64,000 nucleotides of DNA from Lachnospiraceae bacterium (GCA_028724245.1 JAQYDI010000182.1:1-64000); one strand, 5' to 3'; numbered from the stretch's first letter, positions 14,006 to 24,159 are shown. Made by a program: numbers and translations. Notes: generated by a model from the sequence alone, not told the origin.

Positions 14006-14050
14006 ACGGCAGAATAGGTATCGGAAGATGCTTATTCTGCCGTTTTGAGT
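14006..14050 (+). terminator. Intrinsic terminator
   Basis: ACGGCAGAATA ... TATTCTGCCGT followed by TTTGAGTTT. Confidence 0.7.
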
Positions 14051-14070: not shown

Positions 14071-14111
14071 TGTCCCAAACAATTGACTTTTGTCCCAAAA
14101 ACTGATATGAT
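14071..14111 (+). promoter_or_regulatory. Sigma-A-type promoter TTGACT-N17-TATGAT with two TGTCCCAAA direct repeats (candidate operator)
   Basis: -35 at 14083-14088, -10 at 14106-14111; TGTCCCAAA at 14071-14079 and 14091-14099 (20-bp spacing). Confidence 0.65.
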
Positions 14112-14122
14112 TTGGTTTAGAG

Positions 14123-15169
14123 GTGACGGAGATGAAAAAGCAAAATTTAATAAATTTAGTTAAATATCATGTTGAAAAAAAAGAGGATGCATTCAGGAGT
14201 GAAGTTGCAGCAATTGCACGTGATTTTGATGCTAATGGGGACGAGGCGGTTGCTCAGTATCTTATGGAACTGATATCCACTGCAAATTTCTATGTTCCGC
14301 AGGCAAGTTATAAGAATTTAAATTATTTAAAAAAAGTCAACTATTCTACTAATCCATTGATTTTACCGGATGCTATAGAACAGGATGTAATAGGCATTAC
14401 GAGAGCCATAAGCAACAAAGCGGGTCTGTCTAAATTTCTTTTTTACGGAAGATCAGGTACAGGGAAAACGGAATCAGCATATCAGATTGCAAGGATATTA
14501 GGCCGTGATATTTTGTCAGTTGATTTTGAACAGCTGATTGACAGCAGACTTGGAGAAACAGCAAAGAATGTTGCGAAATTATTCGATGAAATTAATCATT
14601 TGCAGTATGGAAAGGTAATTGTTGTTTTTGATGAAATTGATTCATTAGTATTAGACAGGGTTAACAGCAATGACTTAAGAGAAATGGGACGGGTTACTTC
14701 GGTTTTTTTAAGGAAATTAGAAGAGCTTAATGAAAATATTGTTCTTATCGCAACAACAAATCTGTTTGAAAAATTTGATAAAGCTGTAATAAGAAGATTT
14801 GATGCAGCAATATCATTTGATCGCTACAACAAAGAAGACCTGATTGAGATCGCTGATTCTATGCTTACTGCAAGTTTGAAAAAGGCATGCAATTCAAGAA
14901 AGGATATCAGGTTGTTTAATAAAATATTAAGAAATATTCAGGAGATTCCATATCCGGGTGATTTGAAACAGATAATTAAAACGGCAGTTGCATTCAGCGA
15001 TGAAACAAATGAATATGACTATTTGCGAAAAATGTACCTTGCATTGAATCCAAATGATGAAGAACTGCAGCTTCAAAAACTAAATGATGAAGGGTTTACG
15101 GTAAGAGAAATAGAAATTTTATCCAGAGTACCTAAAAGCAGTGTTTCGAGAAAATTGAGGAAAGAGTAA
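14123..15169 (+). CDS. AAA+ ATPase (IetA-like) with C-terminal helix-turn-helix
   Basis: Walker A 'YGRSGTGKTESA', Walker B 'VIVVFDEIDSL', sensor 'LIATTN', 'RRFDAAISF'; C-term 'LNDEGFTVREIEILSRVPKSSVSRKLRK'. ATG at 14132 is an alternative start to GTG 14123. Confidence 0.85.
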   Translation: MTEMKKQNLINLVKYHVEKKEDAFRSEVAAIARDFDANGDEAVAQYLMELISTANFYVPQASYKNLNYLKKVNYSTNPLILPDAIEQDVIGITRAISNKAGLSKFLFYGRSGTGKTESAYQIARILGRDILSVDFEQLIDSRLGETAKNVAKLFDEINHLQYGKVIVVFDEIDSLVLDRVNSNDLREMGRVTSVFLRKLEELNENIVLIATTNLFEKFDKAVIRRFDAAISFDRYNKEDLIEIADSMLTASLKKACNSRKDIRLFNKILRNIQEIPYPGDLKQIIKTAVAFSDETNEYDYLRKMYLALNPNDEELQLQKLNDEGFTVREIEILSRVPKSSVSRKLRKE

Positions 15170-17419
15170 ATGAATAAAATTTTGCAGGTTAAGATGAGAT
15201 TTTCAAACGAGAAGAATAATCAACGTCCGAAAGTAAGGAATTTAAGGGCACATGCTGAAACTACAGCAGAGAAAATTCAGAGTATCTGCGATGATTTAAG
15301 GACTGTATTACGATTTTACAGAAACTCTCCAAAGTTTTTAGAGAATATATTAGTTGATGTTAACTATAATGATATCATAGCAAAATCCAACAGAATTCAA
15401 GAACTGTTAAAACCGGCAGGCAGGAAAACAAATGATATGGTAGTCGGAGCAAGATTTTCGGAGGCTCCGGAAGGGCAGGAAAACCATATTATTACGTATT
15501 ATGTGGATAAAAAAACAGTAGAAAATACCATAGAAGATCTGGAAACAGTAAAGAAATTCCTGCAGAGGAAGTTGGATGGTAAAGCTGTTGCGGGTAATTT
15601 TAATGAACCGGATAATAAATTGGAATATGAGGGGTATGAGCTTTCCAAAAGTAAAATTCGTAATATTATAGTAGATTGTTCCGTGATTGAGTCTTTTGCA
15701 GTGCCGCATGTTTCCAAAGTCCCGGACAAAAAATCATTTTTGGTAACATTTTATAAAACGGAATTATCAGTTGCCAGGCTTTTAGAAATGCTTAAGGTGG
15801 ATGATGTAAAACACCAGTATTATTTTTATGGGGATGATACAATTTCTGTAAATAAAGAATTATATGATTTTTTAGAAATGAATGTACCATATCTTATTTC
15901 GATGGTATCATCTGATTTTTCCAAAATCACATTAACCGATATAGAGAAAACAGACGAAAAAGAGAAAATAGATATCCCTGACCCTGTAAATGAACCAACT
16001 ATAGGTGTTATTGATACGTTGTTTGATGAAAACGTATATTTTAGTAAATGGGTTGAAAATACCGATTATTTAGATGATATTGAAAAGATAATGGATGGAG
16101 ATAAAGATAGAAGTCATGGAACTTCTATTTCTTCAATAATAGTAGACGGACCAAGATTGAATCCCTGGTTGGATGATGGATGTGGGAGATTTAAAGTCAG
16201 GCATTTTGGAGTATGTGCTGAGAGAATATCAACGGTAAGATTAGTAAAGAAAATTAAAGAAATTATTGCCAATAATTCCGACATCCATGTATGGAATCTT
16301 TCTTTAGGAACAGATGATGAAGTGTCAAAAAACTTTATATCGTATGATGCGGCAGTATTAGATGAATTGCAGGCACAGAAAAATATTATTTTTGTTATTT
16401 CCGGGACTAATGATAATCGCAGTGAAAAAAAGGGGATTTTAAAAGTGGGATCTCCGGCAGATTCATTGAATTCTATTGTAGTAAATTCGGTGCGGAGAGA
16501 CGGAACTCCTGCGAGTTATACAAGAAAAGGGAATATCTTATCGTTTTTTAATAAACCTGATGTCTCATATTATGGTGGAGATTATAACGAAAGAATTAAA
16601 GTTTATACCCCACATGGGGAAATGGATGAGTACGGGACATCGTTTGCAGCTCCGTGGATCAGTAGAAAACTGTGTTATTTGATAGATGTGATCGGCTTGC
16701 CAAGGGAGGTGGCAAAGGCAATCATAATAGATTCTGCAGCAGGCTGGGAGTACAAATTAGAAACTTATAAAAATAAAGATGTTTTAGGTTATGGGATTGT
16801 TCCGATAGAAATTTCCAAAATCCTTTCTTCTGAAAGCAGAGAAATAAAGTTTACTGTGTATGGAACATCGCAATCATATAAGACCGTCAATTACGCAATC
16901 CCGGTTCCGAGGGATGAAGATAATAAATATCCATATATAGCCAGAGCAACGATGTGCTATTTCCCGGAATGCAGCAGAACTCAGGGTGTGGATTATACCA
17001 ATCGGGAATTGTCATTGAAGTTTGGACGGGTGAAGGCAAATGGTCAGATAGATGATATAAATGAAAACATTCAGGATGAAGATGGAGCATATGCAGATGA
17101 GCGGCAATCCAGAAAAGATTTTAGAAAATGGGAGAATACAAAATTTATTTCCAAGGTGTTAAAAACTAATCGTCCAATGAAATCTTATGGAGAAAGATTA
17201 TGGGGAATGTCAGTGTCTTCTAAAGAGAGATTGTCTTCACAAATGAATAAAAATTTGAATTTTGGCGCAGTTATCACTTTGAGGGAAGTAAATGGTATAA
17301 ACAGAATAGATGATTTTGTTAAAGCCTGTACTCTGCGGGGATGGATTGTATCAGAGATTGATATTCAAAATCAGATTGATATATACAATACAAATCAGGA
17401 GGAAATTATATTTGATTAA
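15170..17419 (+). CDS. S8 (subtilisin-like) serine protease (IetS-like)
   Basis: Asp 'IGVIDTLFD', His 'DRSHGTSISS', Ser 'YGTSFAAPW'; start abuts the ATPase stop. Confidence 0.88.
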   Translation: MNKILQVKMRFSNEKNNQRPKVRNLRAHAETTAEKIQSICDDLRTVLRFYRNSPKFLENILVDVNYNDIIAKSNRIQELLKPAGRKTNDMVVGARFSEAPEGQENHIITYYVDKKTVENTIEDLETVKKFLQRKLDGKAVAGNFNEPDNKLEYEGYELSKSKIRNIIVDCSVIESFAVPHVSKVPDKKSFLVTFYKTELSVARLLEMLKVDDVKHQYYFYGDDTISVNKELYDFLEMNVPYLISMVSSDFSKITLTDIEKTDEKEKIDIPDPVNEPTIGVIDTLFDENVYFSKWVENTDYLDDIEKIMDGDKDRSHGTSISSIIVDGPRLNPWLDDGCGRFKVRHFGVCAERISTVRLVKKIKEIIANNSDIHVWNLSLGTDDEVSKNFISYDAAVLDELQAQKNIIFVISGTNDNRSEKKGILKVGSPADSLNSIVVNSVRRDGTPASYTRKGNILSFFNKPDVSYYGGDYNERIKVYTPHGEMDEYGTSFAAPWISRKLCYLIDVIGLPREVAKAIIIDSAAGWEYKLETYKNKDVLGYGIVPIEISKILSSESREIKFTVYGTSQSYKTVNYAIPVPRDEDNKYPYIARATMCYFPECSRTQGVDYTNRELSLKFGRVKANGQIDDINENIQDEDGAYADERQSRKDFRKWENTKFISKVLKTNRPMKSYGERLWGMSVSSKERLSSQMNKNLNFGAVITLREVNGINRIDDFVKACTLRGWIVSEIDIQNQIDIYNTNQEEIIFD

Positions 17420-17450
17420 TTTTTTGTGTTTATAGAAAGGAGACTTACAA

Positions 17451-18686
17451 ATGGCAAAAGGGAAGTTTAATTCAGTAGCAGCAACATCCAGAAATAAAAA
17501 TTGGGAGAAGTTAACTGCACGAGAGATCGATTTATATTCAAGAGAAGATGATGTTCGCAGCCCGTTTGCTAGAGATTATACTCGAATATTACATTCATTG
17601 GCATATAGGCGGTTAAAACATAAGACACAGGTATTTTTTAATATTGATAATGATCATATTTGTACACGAATGGAACACGTTGCTCATGTAGAATCAGTAA
17701 GTCATACGATTGCAAAATCTTTAGGTCTTAATGATGAACTTACAAGAGCTATCGCTATGGGACATGATTTAGGACATGCTCCATTTGGGCATCAAGGTGA
17801 AAGTGTTATCAGTGAATTGAGTAACAAATATTTGGGGTTAAAATTCTGGCATGAAAGAAATGGATTGAGATTTGTAGATAAAATAGAATTGCTTGAAGAT
17901 AATTATAAAAGGAGTAAAAACCTTGATTTAACATATGCAGTTCGTGATGGTATTATTTCGCATTGTGGAGAAGTAGATGAAAATGGTTTAGTACCGAGAG
18001 ATGAATTGATTGACTTAGCTGATTTTACAGAAGCAGGAAAATATCAACCAGCAACATGGGAAGGCTGCGTGGTAAAAATATCAGATAAGATTGCATATGT
18101 AGGAAGAGATATAGAAGATGCTATAAATTTGGGTTTCCTTAATGATACAACGAAAAATGATTTATTAAAAATGGCAAGGGCAAATGACGAAAATGTATTG
18201 AATACAACAGTAATTATGCATAACCTGATTATTGATATTTGCGAGAATAGTTCACCGGAAAAAGGAATATGTTTAAGTCCACGTTTTTTGGAACAGATTA
18301 ATTCTATTAAAGACTTTAATTACAAACATATTTATGGGCATGAGCGTTTAATCCCATTTAAGGAGTATTCAAAATTAGTAATCAATCAAATATTTGAAGT
18401 TTTGAAGAAAACATACGACGGAAGACATTCCTGGTCATCAATAAAAGATAAGAAGAAATATTATCCGATTTTAATGAATTCATTCGATAAATGGCTGGCA
18501 CGTTATTGTTGTGTTGATATTATACCTGAAGGAGAATTATTAGTTATTGGACTAAATTGTGAAAATGAAAAAATATATGGAAAATTAGAAGATGAAAAAA
18601 TATATATTCAGGCAATACTGGATTATATTTCGGGAATGACGGATCGATTTGCTATAAAAGTGTTCAATGAATTATTGAACTATTAA
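17451..18686 (+). CDS. dGTPase-family HD hydrolase (dNTP triphosphohydrolase)
   Basis: 'SPFARDYTRILHSLAYRRLKHKTQVF', 'RMEHVAHVESVSHTIAKSLGL', 'AIAMGHDLGHAPFGHQGE'; RBS agaaaggaga; 31-nt gap after the protease. Confidence 0.9.
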   Translation: MAKGKFNSVAATSRNKNWEKLTAREIDLYSREDDVRSPFARDYTRILHSLAYRRLKHKTQVFFNIDNDHICTRMEHVAHVESVSHTIAKSLGLNDELTRAIAMGHDLGHAPFGHQGESVISELSNKYLGLKFWHERNGLRFVDKIELLEDNYKRSKNLDLTYAVRDGIISHCGEVDENGLVPRDELIDLADFTEAGKYQPATWEGCVVKISDKIAYVGRDIEDAINLGFLNDTTKNDLLKMARANDENVLNTTVIMHNLIIDICENSSPEKGICLSPRFLEQINSIKDFNYKHIYGHERLIPFKEYSKLVINQIFEVLKKTYDGRHSWSSIKDKKKYYPILMNSFDKWLARYCCVDIIPEGELLVIGLNCENEKIYGKLEDEKIYIQAILDYISGMTDRFAIKVFNELLNY

Positions 18687-18748
18687 CATTTACAGGAAAT
18701 ACCTGAATTTGATAGTATCCTGTATTTCTACCAACAAACCAGCCATAG

Positions 18749-19138
18749 CCTGCATCTACGTCGTCCCGCGGCCTCCATCTTCAAATGCGCTCCCCACCCA
18801 AGTACAGAGCCGACTTACATTGTGAAAAGGGAAAACCAGCCACAGCCAGCCGAAGAAGCAGACAACAAGTCCTGCAGAGGGGCATGGGGCACCCGCCGTG
18901 CCCGGCCCCCAAAAAGACTTCATTGCCTGCTTCTACATCGTCCCGCGGCCTCCACCCCCAAATGCGCCCCCCACCCAGGTACAGAGCCGACTTACATTGT
19001 GAAAAGGGAAAACCAGCCACAGCCAGCCGAAGAAGCAGGCAACAAGTCCTGCAGAGGGGCATGGGGCACCGCCGTGCCCGGCCCCCGGAAGGACTTCGCT
19101 GCCTGCTTCTTCGGCGTCCCGTGGACCACCCACCCTTT
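18749..19138. repeat. GC-rich ~177-bp tandem repeat, two full copies plus a partial third
   Basis: 'CCTGC(A/T)TCTAC(G/A)TCGTCCCGCGGCCTCCA' at 18749 and 18926, partial at 19102; 'TACAGAGCCGACTTACATTGTGAAAAGGGAAAACCAGCCACAGCCAGCCGAAGAAGCA' at 18803 and 18980. Confidence 0.9.
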
Positions 19139-19350: not shown

Positions 19351-19599
19351 ATGAGAGCATTTACAGAGCCGGAAATGAAAGTCATGGCAGTGAATATGAA
19401 GGAGAATATTGCGAGTAGTGGAACTGTAGAAGGTCATATAAAGAATAAGGACACAGCTATTATGATATCATATAGTGGGGACGAAAGTAAAATCATTGCT
19501 ACTGGTCCGGTGATAAATAGCATCCAAGTGGATCAAATAAGCAATGGTGATCTTAATAGTGGTAGGATTCCTAACTTATGTTGGCAATATAAATCATGA
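19351..19599 (+). CDS. Candidate RiPP precursor / small peptide with 'EPEMKVM..NMKENIASSG' leader
   Basis: Strong RBS (caggaggaaac); leader resembles the small 'xPEvxvixfxxxxxIxtSG' peptides seen beside PqqD/rSAM genes in Clostridia; stop overlaps the PqqD start (ATGA). Confidence 0.5.
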   Translation: MRAFTEPEMKVMAVNMKENIASSGTVEGHIKNKDTAIMISYSGDESKIIATGPVINSIQVDQISNGDLNSGRIPNLCWQYKS

Positions 19600-19863
19600 A
19601 ACTCAAACCCCAATTTCATCCTCCGAAAAGTAGCCACTTCCTGGATGGCGGTTCCCGTTGGTTCCCGTACAGCGGAGCTGAACGGTATCATCGCCCTCAA
19701 TGAGACGGCTGCTTTTCTGTGGGGATTTTTTCAGGAAGAGCATACCGAGGAGGAGGCTGTGCAGGCCCTTCTTCGAGAATTTGATGTGGATGAAGAAACA
19801 GCCGGACGGTCCGTGAAGAGACTTGTGGAGCAGATGGCTGCGGAAGGATTGCTGGAAGAATGA
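19596..19863 (+). pseudogene. PqqD-family RRE protein, apparently frameshifted at a CCCC run near its start
   Basis: From 19645: 'MAVPVGSRTAELNGIIALNETAAFLWGFF...'. Deleting one C at 19608-19611 restores 'MKLKPNFILRKVATSWMAVPVGSRT...', a canonical PqqD-like N-terminus. Confidence 0.75.
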
Positions 19864-20921
19864 TGGATTGTGATTTCGCCCATATGAGTATGGGCGATTT
19901 TATGAAGAATCTGGAGCAGGAGGCTTATGAGCAGGCGATTCCCGTGAAGGGGATTTTCGAACTGACACCCCGCTGCAATATGAACTGTCAGATGTGCTAT
20001 GTGCATCTGCAGCCGGACCAGATTCCGGCGGTGGGCCGGGAGCTGACGGCGGAGGAGTGGATTGCCATCGGCCGTGCGGCGCGGGATGCGGGCATGGTGG
20101 AACTGACGCTGACCGGGGGCGAGGCTCTTGTGCGGCCTGATTTCCGGGAAATTTATGAAGCGTTCAGCGAGATGGGTTTTCTGATCCAGCTGTATACCAA
20201 CGGATACGGCCTCAATGAGAAAATCATGGAATGGCTGAAGGAGCGTCCGCCCTACAGCATCCGTTTTACCATGTACGGTTTTTCCGATGAAACCTATGAA
20301 AAGGTCTGCGGCGTGAAGCACGGGTTTACCCGGGTGATCGAGGCCATGAATCTGGTGCGCAGATCGGGGATTCCCATGTATATGGTAGCCACCATTACGA
20401 AAGACAATGAGCAGGATTTTCCTTCCATCGAAGCCTTTGCAAAGGAAAATGGCCTTCCTTTTACCTATACGACGGCGCTGATTCCGCCGGTGCGCGGTGC
20501 CGTGGCGGATGTGGAGCGGTATCAGGTGGAGCGGAGAATGCCTCCGCCGGAGGTTCTGGAGGAGATGCGCAGGCCGGAGAACCGGAAGAAGCCTCATAAA
20601 AGGCATGAGAATCTGCTGGAGGTCTGCGGCAATTACAGGAAAGGCTTCTGGATCACATGGAATGGGAAGATGCAGCTTTGCACGTTTCTGACGGAACCGG
20701 GGGAACCGGTGCTGGAGTACGGGTTTCAGGAATCATGGAACCGTCTTCTTCAGGATGTGCAGAAGCTCCGTCAGCCGGAAAAATGCCTTGACTGCAGGTA
20801 TGAAGGGTACTGTTCCCGGTGTTACGGTGAGCTGTATGCGGCCAGCGGACGGTGTGATGCGGCGGCAGAATCCTGCTGCGAGCATGCCAGATTGATGTAT
20901 GAAATTTATGAAACAGAGTAA
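19860..20921 (+). CDS. Radical SAM/SPASM peptide maturase
   Basis: 'TPRCNMNCQMCYVH' (CxxxCxxC) and C-terminal Cys-rich SPASM 'CGNYRKG...CLDCRYEGYCSRCYG...CC'. Confidence 0.92.
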   Translation: MMDCDFAHMSMGDFMKNLEQEAYEQAIPVKGIFELTPRCNMNCQMCYVHLQPDQIPAVGRELTAEEWIAIGRAARDAGMVELTLTGGEALVRPDFREIYEAFSEMGFLIQLYTNGYGLNEKIMEWLKERPPYSIRFTMYGFSDETYEKVCGVKHGFTRVIEAMNLVRRSGIPMYMVATITKDNEQDFPSIEAFAKENGLPFTYTTALIPPVRGAVADVERYQVERRMPPPEVLEEMRRPENRKKPHKRHENLLEVCGNYRKGFWITWNGKMQLCTFLTEPGEPVLEYGFQESWNRLLQDVQKLRQPEKCLDCRYEGYCSRCYGELYAASGRCDAAAESCCEHARLMYEIYETE

Positions 20922-21023
20922 CATGTAACAGAGTAACTGACAGGGGCAGCTGTGCGGCGCGTTTTCCGGGGCAGATCCGGGAGGCGGGCTGCAGGCAGGC
21001 CCTTTTTTAAGGATAGACAGAAG

Positions 21024-21857
21024 ATGGAACGATATTACAGTATTGCAGGAACCGTGATCCGGGTGGTGAGCCGATCCGGGAATCCGGTGCGGATGTTCGA
21101 CGGGTTTGAGTGTAAGCCGGCGGAGGATGTGCTGCTGACGCTTCAGGTGGAGGAGAGCGGAGAATCTTCTCTGTGCAGCTGCTACGGCGTCAGCCATTTT
21201 GCATGTCCGCCCGGATATACCCATGTGCTTTTCGGCAGCTCCGGCAGGGGTGAAAACCGTCTGCTGGCAAATGAGGACTGGAGCCGTCTGCTGCTTGTGG
21301 GCGATCCGTCCCATGAAATGGCATGGATGGAACTGCTGGCGGCGGCGTTTTATTCCAGGCTGACGGTTGTGGGCGGTCTGCTGATGCATGCCTCGGCGGT
21401 AAAGTACGAAGGACGGGCGGTGGTATTTACGGCGGCTTCCGGTACCGGCAAGACGACGCAGGCGGAGCTGTGGAAGAAGTATCTGCAGGCGGAGATTCTC
21501 AACGGGGACAAGGTGTTTCTGCGGCCGGATGTACATACCGGCACGATCCATGCGTGGGGCTCTCCATGGTGCGGTTCTTCACCTTATGCGGTCAATGACA
21601 GCGCAGAAGCGGCAGCCATCGTGGTGCTGGCACAGGGCAGGAAAAATGAGATCCGCCGGCTGGATCCCATGGAGACGCTGGCGCTGTTTACGCCCCATGT
21701 ATTTTTCCCCAGCTGGGATCCGACCTGTCTGGAACGGATGATGGGCACACTGGATGCGGCAGCCGGACAGATTCCGGTGTATTATCTCAGCTGTCTGCCT
21801 GATGCGGAGGCCGTTCTGCTGACAAGGAACCGGATCTTCGGCAGCCGGGGAAACTGA
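21024..21857 (+). CDS. HPr kinase/phosphorylase-like (HprK-related) protein
   Basis: P-loop 'VFTAASGTGKTTQAELWKK', 'GDKVFLRPD', 'GSPWCGSSPYAVND'. ORF track starts at 20952 (GTG); ATG 21024 more likely. Confidence 0.8.
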   Translation: MERYYSIAGTVIRVVSRSGNPVRMFDGFECKPAEDVLLTLQVEESGESSLCSCYGVSHFACPPGYTHVLFGSSGRGENRLLANEDWSRLLLVGDPSHEMAWMELLAAAFYSRLTVVGGLLMHASAVKYEGRAVVFTAASGTGKTTQAELWKKYLQAEILNGDKVFLRPDVHTGTIHAWGSPWCGSSPYAVNDSAEAAAIVVLAQGRKNEIRRLDPMETLALFTPHVFFPSWDPTCLERMMGTLDAAAGQIPVYYLSCLPDAEAVLLTRNRIFGSRGN

Positions 21858-21928
21858 TGAGAAAACCAATGGGAAGACTGATGAGAAAACCGATGGGAAG
21901 ATTGATGAAGAAACTGGCGGGAAGGCCG
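21857..21928 (+). repeat. 24-bp in-frame tandem repeat (MRKPMGRL MRKPMGRL MKKLAGRP)
   Basis: ATGAGAAAACCAATGGGAAGACTG / ATGAGAAAACCGATGGGAAGATTG / ATGAAGAAACTGGCGGGAAGGCCG. Confidence 0.85.
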
Positions 21929-22399
21929 ACGGAGAGTTTGGGAGAAGGGCTGACAGTGTGTACCGGGGAATTTTCTGCGGAAGAACTGGTGCCTGTTATC
22001 AGGGAGGTGCTGGAGGCGGGCGGTGCATTTACGCTGAAGGTGACCGGGTACAGCATGACGCCTACGCTGAAGCATCTGCGGGATCAGGTGCAGCTGGTTT
22101 CTCCGGCTGTCCGTCCGGCGCGGACAGGTGAAATCGTGTTTTTTGAGAGGGAGGGCGGTGTTTTTGTGCTTCACCGGATCATCGGTGTGCTTCCGGAGGG
22201 GAGACTGCTGATCAACGGGGATGCACAGAACTGGACCGAGTCCATCCTGCCGGAGCAGATCATCGGCGTGGTAAACCGGATGGAGCGCCGGGGCAGATGG
22301 ATTTCCTGTGACCGGCCCTTCTACCGGATGTGGGTGAAGGTCTGGGGAACACTGCGTCCCCTGCGCCCTTTCCTGCTTCGGAAAAGGAGAAATAGATGA
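21857..22399 (+). CDS. S24/S26 (signal peptidase-like) protein
   Basis: 'VTGYSMTPTL', 'GEIVFFEREGGVFVLHRIIGV', 'LLINGDAQ'. Confidence 0.82.
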   Translation: MRKPMGRLMRKPMGRLMKKLAGRPTESLGEGLTVCTGEFSAEELVPVIREVLEAGGAFTLKVTGYSMTPTLKHLRDQVQLVSPAVRPARTGEIVFFEREGGVFVLHRIIGVLPEGRLLINGDAQNWTESILPEQIIGVVNRMERRGRWISCDRPFYRMWVKVWGTLRPLRPFLLRKRRNR

Positions 22400-24159
22400 A
22401 TTTATTGAAAAAGATCATTCGAAAGATCAAGGAGGGAATGCTGCAGGAAATCTTTCAGGAACTGCTGTGGATCTATCATTATGGTCTGCGGTATAAGATG
22501 GAGATCCTGTGGTATATTTTTCTGGGAATTTTCAGCACGGGCATGAGTCTGGGCGGAAGCGTGATCAGCAAATATATTATTGATGCGGTGACCGGATTTG
22601 ATTCGAAGGGGCTGGCTCCGGCGGCCGTTTTTTATATTCTGATGCAGCTGATGCGCATCGGCAGCAATGCGTGGACAAGACGGATATCCACCCGAATTGA
22701 GATCAAAGTGGATCAGGAGATACGGGCGGATGTGTATGACAAGATCATGGAGGCTGACTGGGAGGCCATGTCGGAATATCATTCCGGCGATCTGCTGAAC
22801 CGGGTGGACAATGATGTGAGCAGCATTTCCAGCAGCGTACTGGGCTGGGTGCCGGATTTTGTGACGCAGCTGGTGCAGTTTCTGGGTACGCTGGGGATTA
22901 TTATTTACTATGATCCGACACTGGCCGGTCTGGCGCTTTTAAGCGCGCCGGTGACACTGGTGGTTTCCCGGGTGCTGATGAAGAAAATGCGGGATTACAA
23001 TAAAAAGATGCGGGAAGCCAGCTCGGAAGTGATGATGTTCAACGAGGAATCCTTTCAGAATGTGCAGGTGATCAAGTCTTTCGGGCTGACCGGACTGTAC
23101 GGGCGCAAACTGAGGCAGGTGCAGGCCCGTTACCGGGAAATCAGGCTGGATTACAATAAATTTTCCATTCTGACCTCTTCCTTTATGTCGCTGGTGGGTA
23201 CGGTGGTGACGGTGGTCTGCTTTGGATGGGGCGTGTACCGTCTGTGGACCGGCCATATTACGTACGGTACCATGACGTTGTTTCTGGAGATGTCCGATTC
23301 CCTTTCCGCGTCATTTTCTTCTCTGGTCTATATGGTGCCCAGCGCCATATCCGCCGCCACGGCAGCAGGCCGGATCATGGCGGTGGCGGAGCTTCCCAAA
23401 GAGAACCGGGAAGGGGAGGAACAGGTGGAGCAGCTGCTTGAGGAGAACCGGAAGGGCGGCGTCAGCGTGGAGACGGAGCAGATGGCCTTCGGCTACGCAG
23501 GCGGGAAAATGGTTTTCGAGCATGTGGATTTTCTGGCGGCGCCCGGTGAGATCGTGGCGCTGGTGGGCCCCTCCGGGGAGGGCAAGACCACCATGCTCCG
23601 TGTGATCCTGGGTATTGTAAATGTGAAGGCGGGAAGTGCCCGGGTATTCGGGCGGGATACGCAGCAGAAGATTCCCATATCCGCTGCCACGCGGCGGCTT
23701 TTCGCCTATGTGCCCCAGGGCAATACCATGTTTGCCGGTACGGTGGCGGAAAATCTGCGCATGATGAAGCAGGATGCTTCCGATGAGGAACTGTATGAGG
23801 TACTGAAACTGGCCTGCGCCTATGATTTCATTGTCCGTCTGCCTGACGGGCTGAACAGCCGTATCAGGGAACGGGGCGGCGGATTTTCCGAGGGGCAGAT
23901 CCAGAGGCTTTCCATTGCCCGGGCCCTGCTTGCCGATGTCCCCGTCCTTCTGCTGGATGAAGCTACCAGTGCGCTGGACGTGGCCACCGAGCGGAAGGTG
24001 CTGCGCAATATCATGCAGTCGGAGAAAAACAGGACCTGTATCGTGACCACCCACCGGCCCAGCGTACTGGGAATCTGCAGCCGGGTGTACCGCATCGAGG
24101 GCGGCAGCATGACCTGTGTGGGAGAAGAGGAAGTACAGAAAATGATGATGGATTTCTGA
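22396..24159 (+). CDS. ABC transporter ATP-binding/permease protein
   Basis: N-terminal TM domain, Walker A 'VGPSGEGKTTM', 'FSEGQIQRLSIARALL', 'VLLLDEATSALD'. Confidence 0.93.
   Translation: MNLLKKIIRKIKEGMLQEIFQELLWIYHYGLRYKMEILWYIFLGIFSTGMSLGGSVISKYIIDAVTGFDSKGLAPAAVFYILMQLMRIGSNAWTRRISTRIEIKVDQEIRADVYDKIMEADWEAMSEYHSGDLLNRVDNDVSSISSSVLGWVPDFVTQLVQFLGTLGIIIYYDPTLAGLALLSAPVTLVVSRVLMKKMRDYNKKMREASSEVMMFNEESFQNVQVIKSFGLTGLYGRKLRQVQARYREIRLDYNKFSILTSSFMSLVGTVVTVVCFGWGVYRLWTGHITYGTMTLFLEMSDSLSASFSSLVYMVPSAISAATAAGRIMAVAELPKENREGEEQVEQLLEENRKGGVSVETEQMAFGYAGGKMVFEHVDFLAAPGEIVALVGPSGEGKTTMLRVILGIVNVKAGSARVFGRDTQQKIPISAATRRLFAYVPQGNTMFAGTVAENLRMMKQDASDEELYEVLKLACAYDFIVRLPDGLNSRIRERGGGFSEGQIQRLSIARALLADVPVLLLDEATSALDVATERKVLRNIMQSEKNRTCIVTTHRPSVLGICSRVYRIEGGSMTCVGEEEVQKMMMDF

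Follow-up and report, generated by a model that had tools for sequence, protein, structure and literature searches.

A divergent IetAS toxin-antitoxin pair with phased promoter repeats, next to an accessory dGTPase, in a Lachnospiraceae bacterium

We analysed 64,000 nucleotides of DNA from Lachnospiraceae bacterium (GCA_028724245.1 JAQYDI010000182.1:1-64000, hereafter the window), in which genes for an AAA ATPase, an S8 (subtilisin-like) protease and a dGTPase follow one another on the + strand. ORF (open reading frame) analysis placed three co-oriented frames at 14123-15169, 15170-17419 and 17451-18686, with junctions of 0 and 31 nt, and their GC contents of 34, 35 and 32% compare with 49% in the remaining window. 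This layout agrees with the initial annotation, which had read the genes as a putative composite anti-phage module of an ietAS pair and a dGTPase; the catalytic motifs it had described were likewise found intact in all three proteins by residue inspection and alignment. The first frame was present as described, but its proposed GTG start at 14123 was not retained, because the start conserved among relatives is the ATG at 14132 (MKKQN...). We therefore assign ietA to 14132-15169, encoding a 345-residue AAA ATPase that is the predicted antitoxin or sensor. The predicted toxin, an S8 protease of 749 residues, is encoded by ietS (15170-17419), and the third gene (17451-18686) encodes an HD triphosphohydrolase of 411 residues recognised by TIGR01353, which we regard as an accessory dGTPase outside the module.

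The ietAS identity of the first two genes was borne out by library searches, in which IetA (PADLOC, 5.6e-37; Pfam AAA, 1.7e-25) and IetS (PADLOC, 5.4e-59; Pfam Peptidase_S8, 7.8e-31) matched the expected models. IetA carries a Walker A motif (G106-x2-G-x-GKT), a Walker B motif (D167-E168) and the arginines R221/R222, numbered from the ATG at 14132; together with the matches to IetA models, the intact Walker motifs identify it as a family member. The same holds for IetS, which matched the IetS models and whose full Asp/His/Ser triad (D282/H316/S491) is invariant across 14 sequences. The genes are adjacent and co-oriented with the ATPase first, and this two-gene unit recurred in 20/20 loci, where ietA was the sole consistently recurrent neighbour of ietS. 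The NCBIfam equivalog cut-offs were missed (NF042959, 102 of 510 bits; NF042956, 138 of 900 bits), which marks the pair as a divergent clade of the wider IetAS family, outside the NCBIfam equivalog; we base its assignment to the family on the PADLOC models and the gene architecture. A fold search with IetA returned generic AAA ATPases only (p97, proteasome Rpt subunits and TRIP13), and the structural model of IetS, with a mean predicted local distance difference test score (pLDDT) of 65, was too uncertain for use. IetAS is also counted among the anti-phage systems. As a separate observation, a contig classed as viral in IMG/VR (L085 / L154) carries an IetAS pair with a 66% identical IetS and the promoter repeats described below, and ietAS may travel on phages or phage-like elements.

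In mycoplasma, a toxic subtilisin of 757 residues is neutralised by an AAA-ATPase of 353 residues (PMC8562856), and the relative encoded by SGI1, SgiAT, likewise pairs a toxic protease with a neutralising ATPase (PMC5006074). The Mycoplasma mycoides pair, TA132/3, resembles the window pair in gene order, ATPase then protease, in forming an operon without an intergenic gap and in its nearly equal protein lengths (353/757 versus 345/749 residues; PMC8562856). A Mesomycoplasma hyorhinis protein, which is a relative and not TA132/3 itself, aligned with the window IetS over its full length at 39% identity; its locus lacks both the promoter repeats and an intact C-terminal helix-turn-helix in IetA. 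The AAA ATPase antitoxin and S8 protease toxin architecture is also that of IetAS from pTiC58 and SgiAT from SGI1 (PMC5006074), and the window proteins match the IetA/IetS models; the Agrobacterium and other proteobacterial S8 proteins that our searches returned aligned only partially with the window IetS, at ~22-25% identity. LexA has been considered as a regulator of sgiAT, whose expression was found not to be SOS-regulated in Salmonella (PMC9927553).

Upstream of ietA, all on the + strand, a terminator-like hairpin (14006-14043; a 17-pair stem followed by TTTTGAGTTTA) closes a polysaccharide-type gene group and sets ietAS apart from it. It is followed by tandem operator-like repeats of TGTCCCAA (14071-14099), in which GTCCCAA occurs at 14072 and 14092. 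These copies, 20 bp apart, flank the -35 box of a predicted ietA promoter (14083-14111; TTGACT, 17 bp, TATGAT, with TG 5' of the -10 box), a pattern match whose fit to the consensus is among the best of the region. An Rfam search of the region gave no structured RNA match.

The repeats were followed through the window and 44 other full-length IetAS loci drawn from genomes, IMG/VR and plasmids (45 in all), to which a later phylum-wide draw added six (total 51). When a pair was scored as at least 10 of 12 bases matching two GTCCCA copies (two mismatches allowed), it was present in 40/43 loci, with a spacing of only 20 bp (26 loci) or 21 bp (14 loci), and in 6/6 loci of the later draw, or 46/49 testable loci combined. 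Strict pairs numbered 34 in the 45 loci, against 0.001 expected from shuffled upstream regions. The repeats are spread over Lachnospiraceae and other Bacillota and are also present on a Carnobacterium plasmid. The host genome contains the exact pattern at 14071 and nowhere else. Across the family sample it was found at a dozen sites at ietA, and its other matches were mostly repeat families of a few genomes or single hits near the level of a reversed-pattern control.

A candidate reader of these repeats lies in IetA itself. Its C-terminal residues 314-344 (15071-15163) form a predicted helix-turn-helix, with AlphaFold2 helices at 314-319, 324-331 and 335-344 and a pLDDT of ~90 up to residue 340, and residues T323, R325, S336, R340 and L342 are invariant in 14 sequences. 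The three loci without repeats are two on Macrococcus plasmids, whose IetA has a different recognition helix, and one of Mesomycoplasma, in which the helix is lost.

In several distant clades IetA ends in a similar C-terminal stretch, as judged by inspection. We examined this distant set after the idea had arisen, with the period of 20-21 bp already fixed from the main clade. Repeats with this step lay upstream of the genes in L203 (three copies of TAATAACG), L205 (four copies like TGTAACGG), L206 and L207 (about five of ATAACR each), L210 (five to six like AAAATGCCCA) and L184 (three of GGAACAAA). As a control, 393 other genes of the retrieved loci were scored, and only 0.8% had a tandem score of at least 4. 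The distant pair of L184 (L184:242-5504), on an Enterococcus faecium plasmid (NZ_CP059824.1), is flanked by two TIR-domain genes, and several plasmid records of E. faecium contain similar IetS matches.

We next turn to how far the conserved unit extends. Downstream DNA of at least 1.2 kb was available for 41/45 loci. The nearest relatives with long downstream sequence are Extibacter muris (L006) and a Lachnospiraceae metagenome-assembled genome (L008), whose IetS proteins are 86-87% identical to that of the window. Nucleotide similarity to both begins with the promoter repeats, at 14071, and stops at the ietS stop codon (17418-17419), and across relatives with 83-87% IetS identity the homology is confined to 14071 to 17418-17421. 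The gene 3' of ietS is cassette-recombinase-like in L006 and a small unrelated gene in L008. The former (L006:10423-11958) is a large serine recombinase resembling the cassette chromosome recombinases CcrB/CcrC and is a possible means of transfer.

The check suggested by the initial annotation, a search for conserved AAA-S8-dGTPase triads, was made in 299 genomes of Lachnospiraceae, 392 of the order, 300 of the phylum, viral contigs and plasmids, and found none. A dGTPase adjoined ietAS in 0/44 other loci of the main set and in 0/6 of the later draw, which leaves the window as the sole such case among the 51. A three-gene IetA-IetS-dGTPase system was accordingly rejected for want of recurrence (1/51 loci, the window itself), and we found no description of one in the open literature searched. 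Nor did any conserved third gene appear beside ietAS in the 20 loci compared or beside the relatives of the dGTPase.

The dGTPase matched the PADLOC dGTPase model (4.3e-55) and exceeded the TIGR01353 cut-off (170 versus 152 bits). Its active-site residues H76, H105-D106, H114/E117 and D212 are invariant in its subfamily and in a second dGTPase of the host, encoded directly upstream of dnaG and rpoD (neighbours named by inspection). This dgt gene of the dgt-dnaG-rpoD group scores 483 bits with NF002327, above the cut-off, and is the housekeeping dGTPase. Since dgt sits elsewhere, the window gene is ruled out as the housekeeping copy. Two outcomes had been named beforehand as fatal to the composite module: that the dGTPase is not kept beside ietAS in other genomes, which proved to be so, and that it is the housekeeping copy, which it is not. 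The housekeeping type (PRK01286, NF002327) and the window enzyme share the HD family and the active-site residues but differ in length (339 versus 411 residues, 36% identity), and the window enzyme falls below the NF002327 cut-off (232 of 393).

Library matches offer no argument for a defence role of this enzyme, because the PADLOC dGTPase model ranks the housekeeping dgt (264 bits) above the window copy (186 bits), and because both miss the cut-off of 400 of the anti-phage model NF041026, at 203 and 126 bits, respectively. A defence-library match for a dGTPase therefore cannot tell defence from housekeeping copies. Defence dGTPases and Clover CloA/CloB (PMC12265719) have the HD dGTPase family in common with the window enzyme, which, unlike them, is below the anti-phage cut-off; no nucleotidyltransferase, as in Clover, was recognised among the neighbouring genes scanned.

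The subfamily of the window dGTPase occurs in 11 further genomes of the 299 Lachnospiraceae, at 53-67% identity, with the next matches at ~42%. These relatives lie in scattered, unrelated chromosomal contexts without shared neighbours, and no IetAS was found beside any of them at the 11 loci with wide flanks. In G230, G293, G215, G257, G129 and G265 we found no second dGTPase type with a full family score. Viral contigs held no relatives of the window dGTPase, and phage and plasmid records held distant ones only (best ~34% identity). The GC content of the relatives tracks their own surroundings (range 38-63%), from which the window copy deviates with 32% in a 49% context. Because of this deviation, and because no copy of the subfamily was found in three congeners, the gene was probably acquired in this lineage; in a comparison for an empty insertion site, the flanking gene had no full counterpart in these congeners. 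No terminator was predicted in the 31-bp gap between ietS and the dGTPase gene, so the latter may be read through from the ietAS promoter. As a side observation, G265 (L097:8568-9362) encodes two dGTPases of this subfamily, one of them shortened to 264 residues.

Together, these data identify an ordinary IetAS pair, from a divergent clade of the family, and, to judge by gene neighbourhoods, an unrelated accessory dGTPase without a conserved link to IetAS, which most likely works alone in deoxynucleoside triphosphate pool control. We consider it probable that the locus is a two-gene, self-regulating IetAS toxin-antitoxin or defence cassette followed by this neighbour. IetS would be a subtilisin-like protease toxin restrained by the AAA ATPase IetA, as was demonstrated in relatives. 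The conservation of the repeats and their co-variation with the helix-turn-helix suggest that the C-terminal domain of IetA probably binds the tandem GTCCCAA repeats around the -35 box and thereby probably controls how strongly the pair is transcribed, by repression or in another way. The balance between the two proteins would be disturbed by a trigger, for example infection by a phage or the loss of the element, which would shift IetA and free IetS. The dGTPase gene would have been gained next to ietAS in this lineage and may be transcribed from the same promoter.

The interest of the locus lies in the phased repeats and in the regulatory role that they suggest for IetA. The control of IetAS is little described in the literature that we searched, and the repeats offer a concrete hypothesis, namely that the ATPase antitoxin regulates its own genes by binding their operator. 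We found neither ietA repeats nor autoregulation described in this open literature; an earlier mention for pTiC58 is possible, as the original report lies outside it. Extended to the family, the proposal is that IetA antitoxins double as DNA-binding regulators, whose C-terminal helix-turn-helix reads promoter arrays of 2-6 direct repeats spaced by 20-21 bp, or two helical turns, with a clade-specific sequence. A single ring or spiral of the ATPase might bridge a number of repeats and thereby link toxin control with transcription, and the incompatibility that ietAS confers between elements might stem from repeat types held in common. We give this general form an even chance of being correct.

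Several observations weigh against these proposals. Pfam helix-turn-helix family matches to the IetA C terminus stayed below the cut-off. The repeat-less Macrococcus and Mesomycoplasma loci are also among those with more divergent IetA, and the co-variation therefore stands on two independent cases. No 20-22 bp repeat was found in the distant loci L185 (the Agrobacterium locus, unlike the window in this respect), L186, L204, L209, L211 and L212, for which reason we do not claim that the repeats are universal. The GTCCCAA repeats might instead be the target of an unlinked factor, and the AT-richness common to the dGTPase and ietAS, together with their contiguity, also fits joint acquisition.

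An unlikely alternative, although one that accommodates the composition of the locus, is a defence island, in which IetAS and a solitary dGTPase would be independent anti-phage genes gathered at a hot spot and sharing a transcript only. Both differ from their surroundings in being AT-rich, the dGTPase subfamily has no copy in the congeners, and IetAS relatives adjoin type I restriction-like genes (L035, by inspection), Shedu, TIR genes or methyltransferases. Against this, the dGTPase relatives are chromosomal, of local GC content and without shared neighbours, and the NCBIfam anti-phage score is far below its cut-off. We find it distinctly improbable that a host regulator binds the repeats instead of IetA, which would make ietAS part of a host regulon. 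The repeats do overlap the promoter, and direct binding by IetA is a prediction; the same repeats nevertheless recur in Lachnospiraceae, in other Bacillota and on the Carnobacterium plasmid, the host genome has only one copy of the exact pattern, and the repeat sequence changes with the IetA clade. Finally, the composite module, in which IetA and IetS would sense infection and the dGTPase would be a second, possibly proteolytically controlled effector, is very improbable and was removed as unsupported, tempting as a new defence system was: the common strand, the 31-nt gap, the similar low GC content, the lack of a predicted intervening terminator and the fact that dGTPases can be defence effectors (PMC12265719) favour it, but no second case appeared among 51 IetAS loci or 11 dGTPase relatives with wide flanks, which lie away from IetAS, no third gene recurs, the conserved DNA stops at the ietS stop codon, and this dGTPase is the only type found in several relatives.

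Two features lie beyond the dGTPase gene. Just 3' of it, at 18744-19070, a GC-rich 150-bp repeat occurs twice in direct orientation, with 94% identity between the copies, 177 bp from start to start and no Rfam match. Further downstream, window positions 19351-24159 encode a PqqE-like radical SAM/SPASM protein, a weak ScmC match, a signal-peptidase-like protein and an ABC exporter and, with a small ORF at 19351, resemble a peptide-modification cluster of the RiPP (ribosomally synthesised and post-translationally modified peptide) type.

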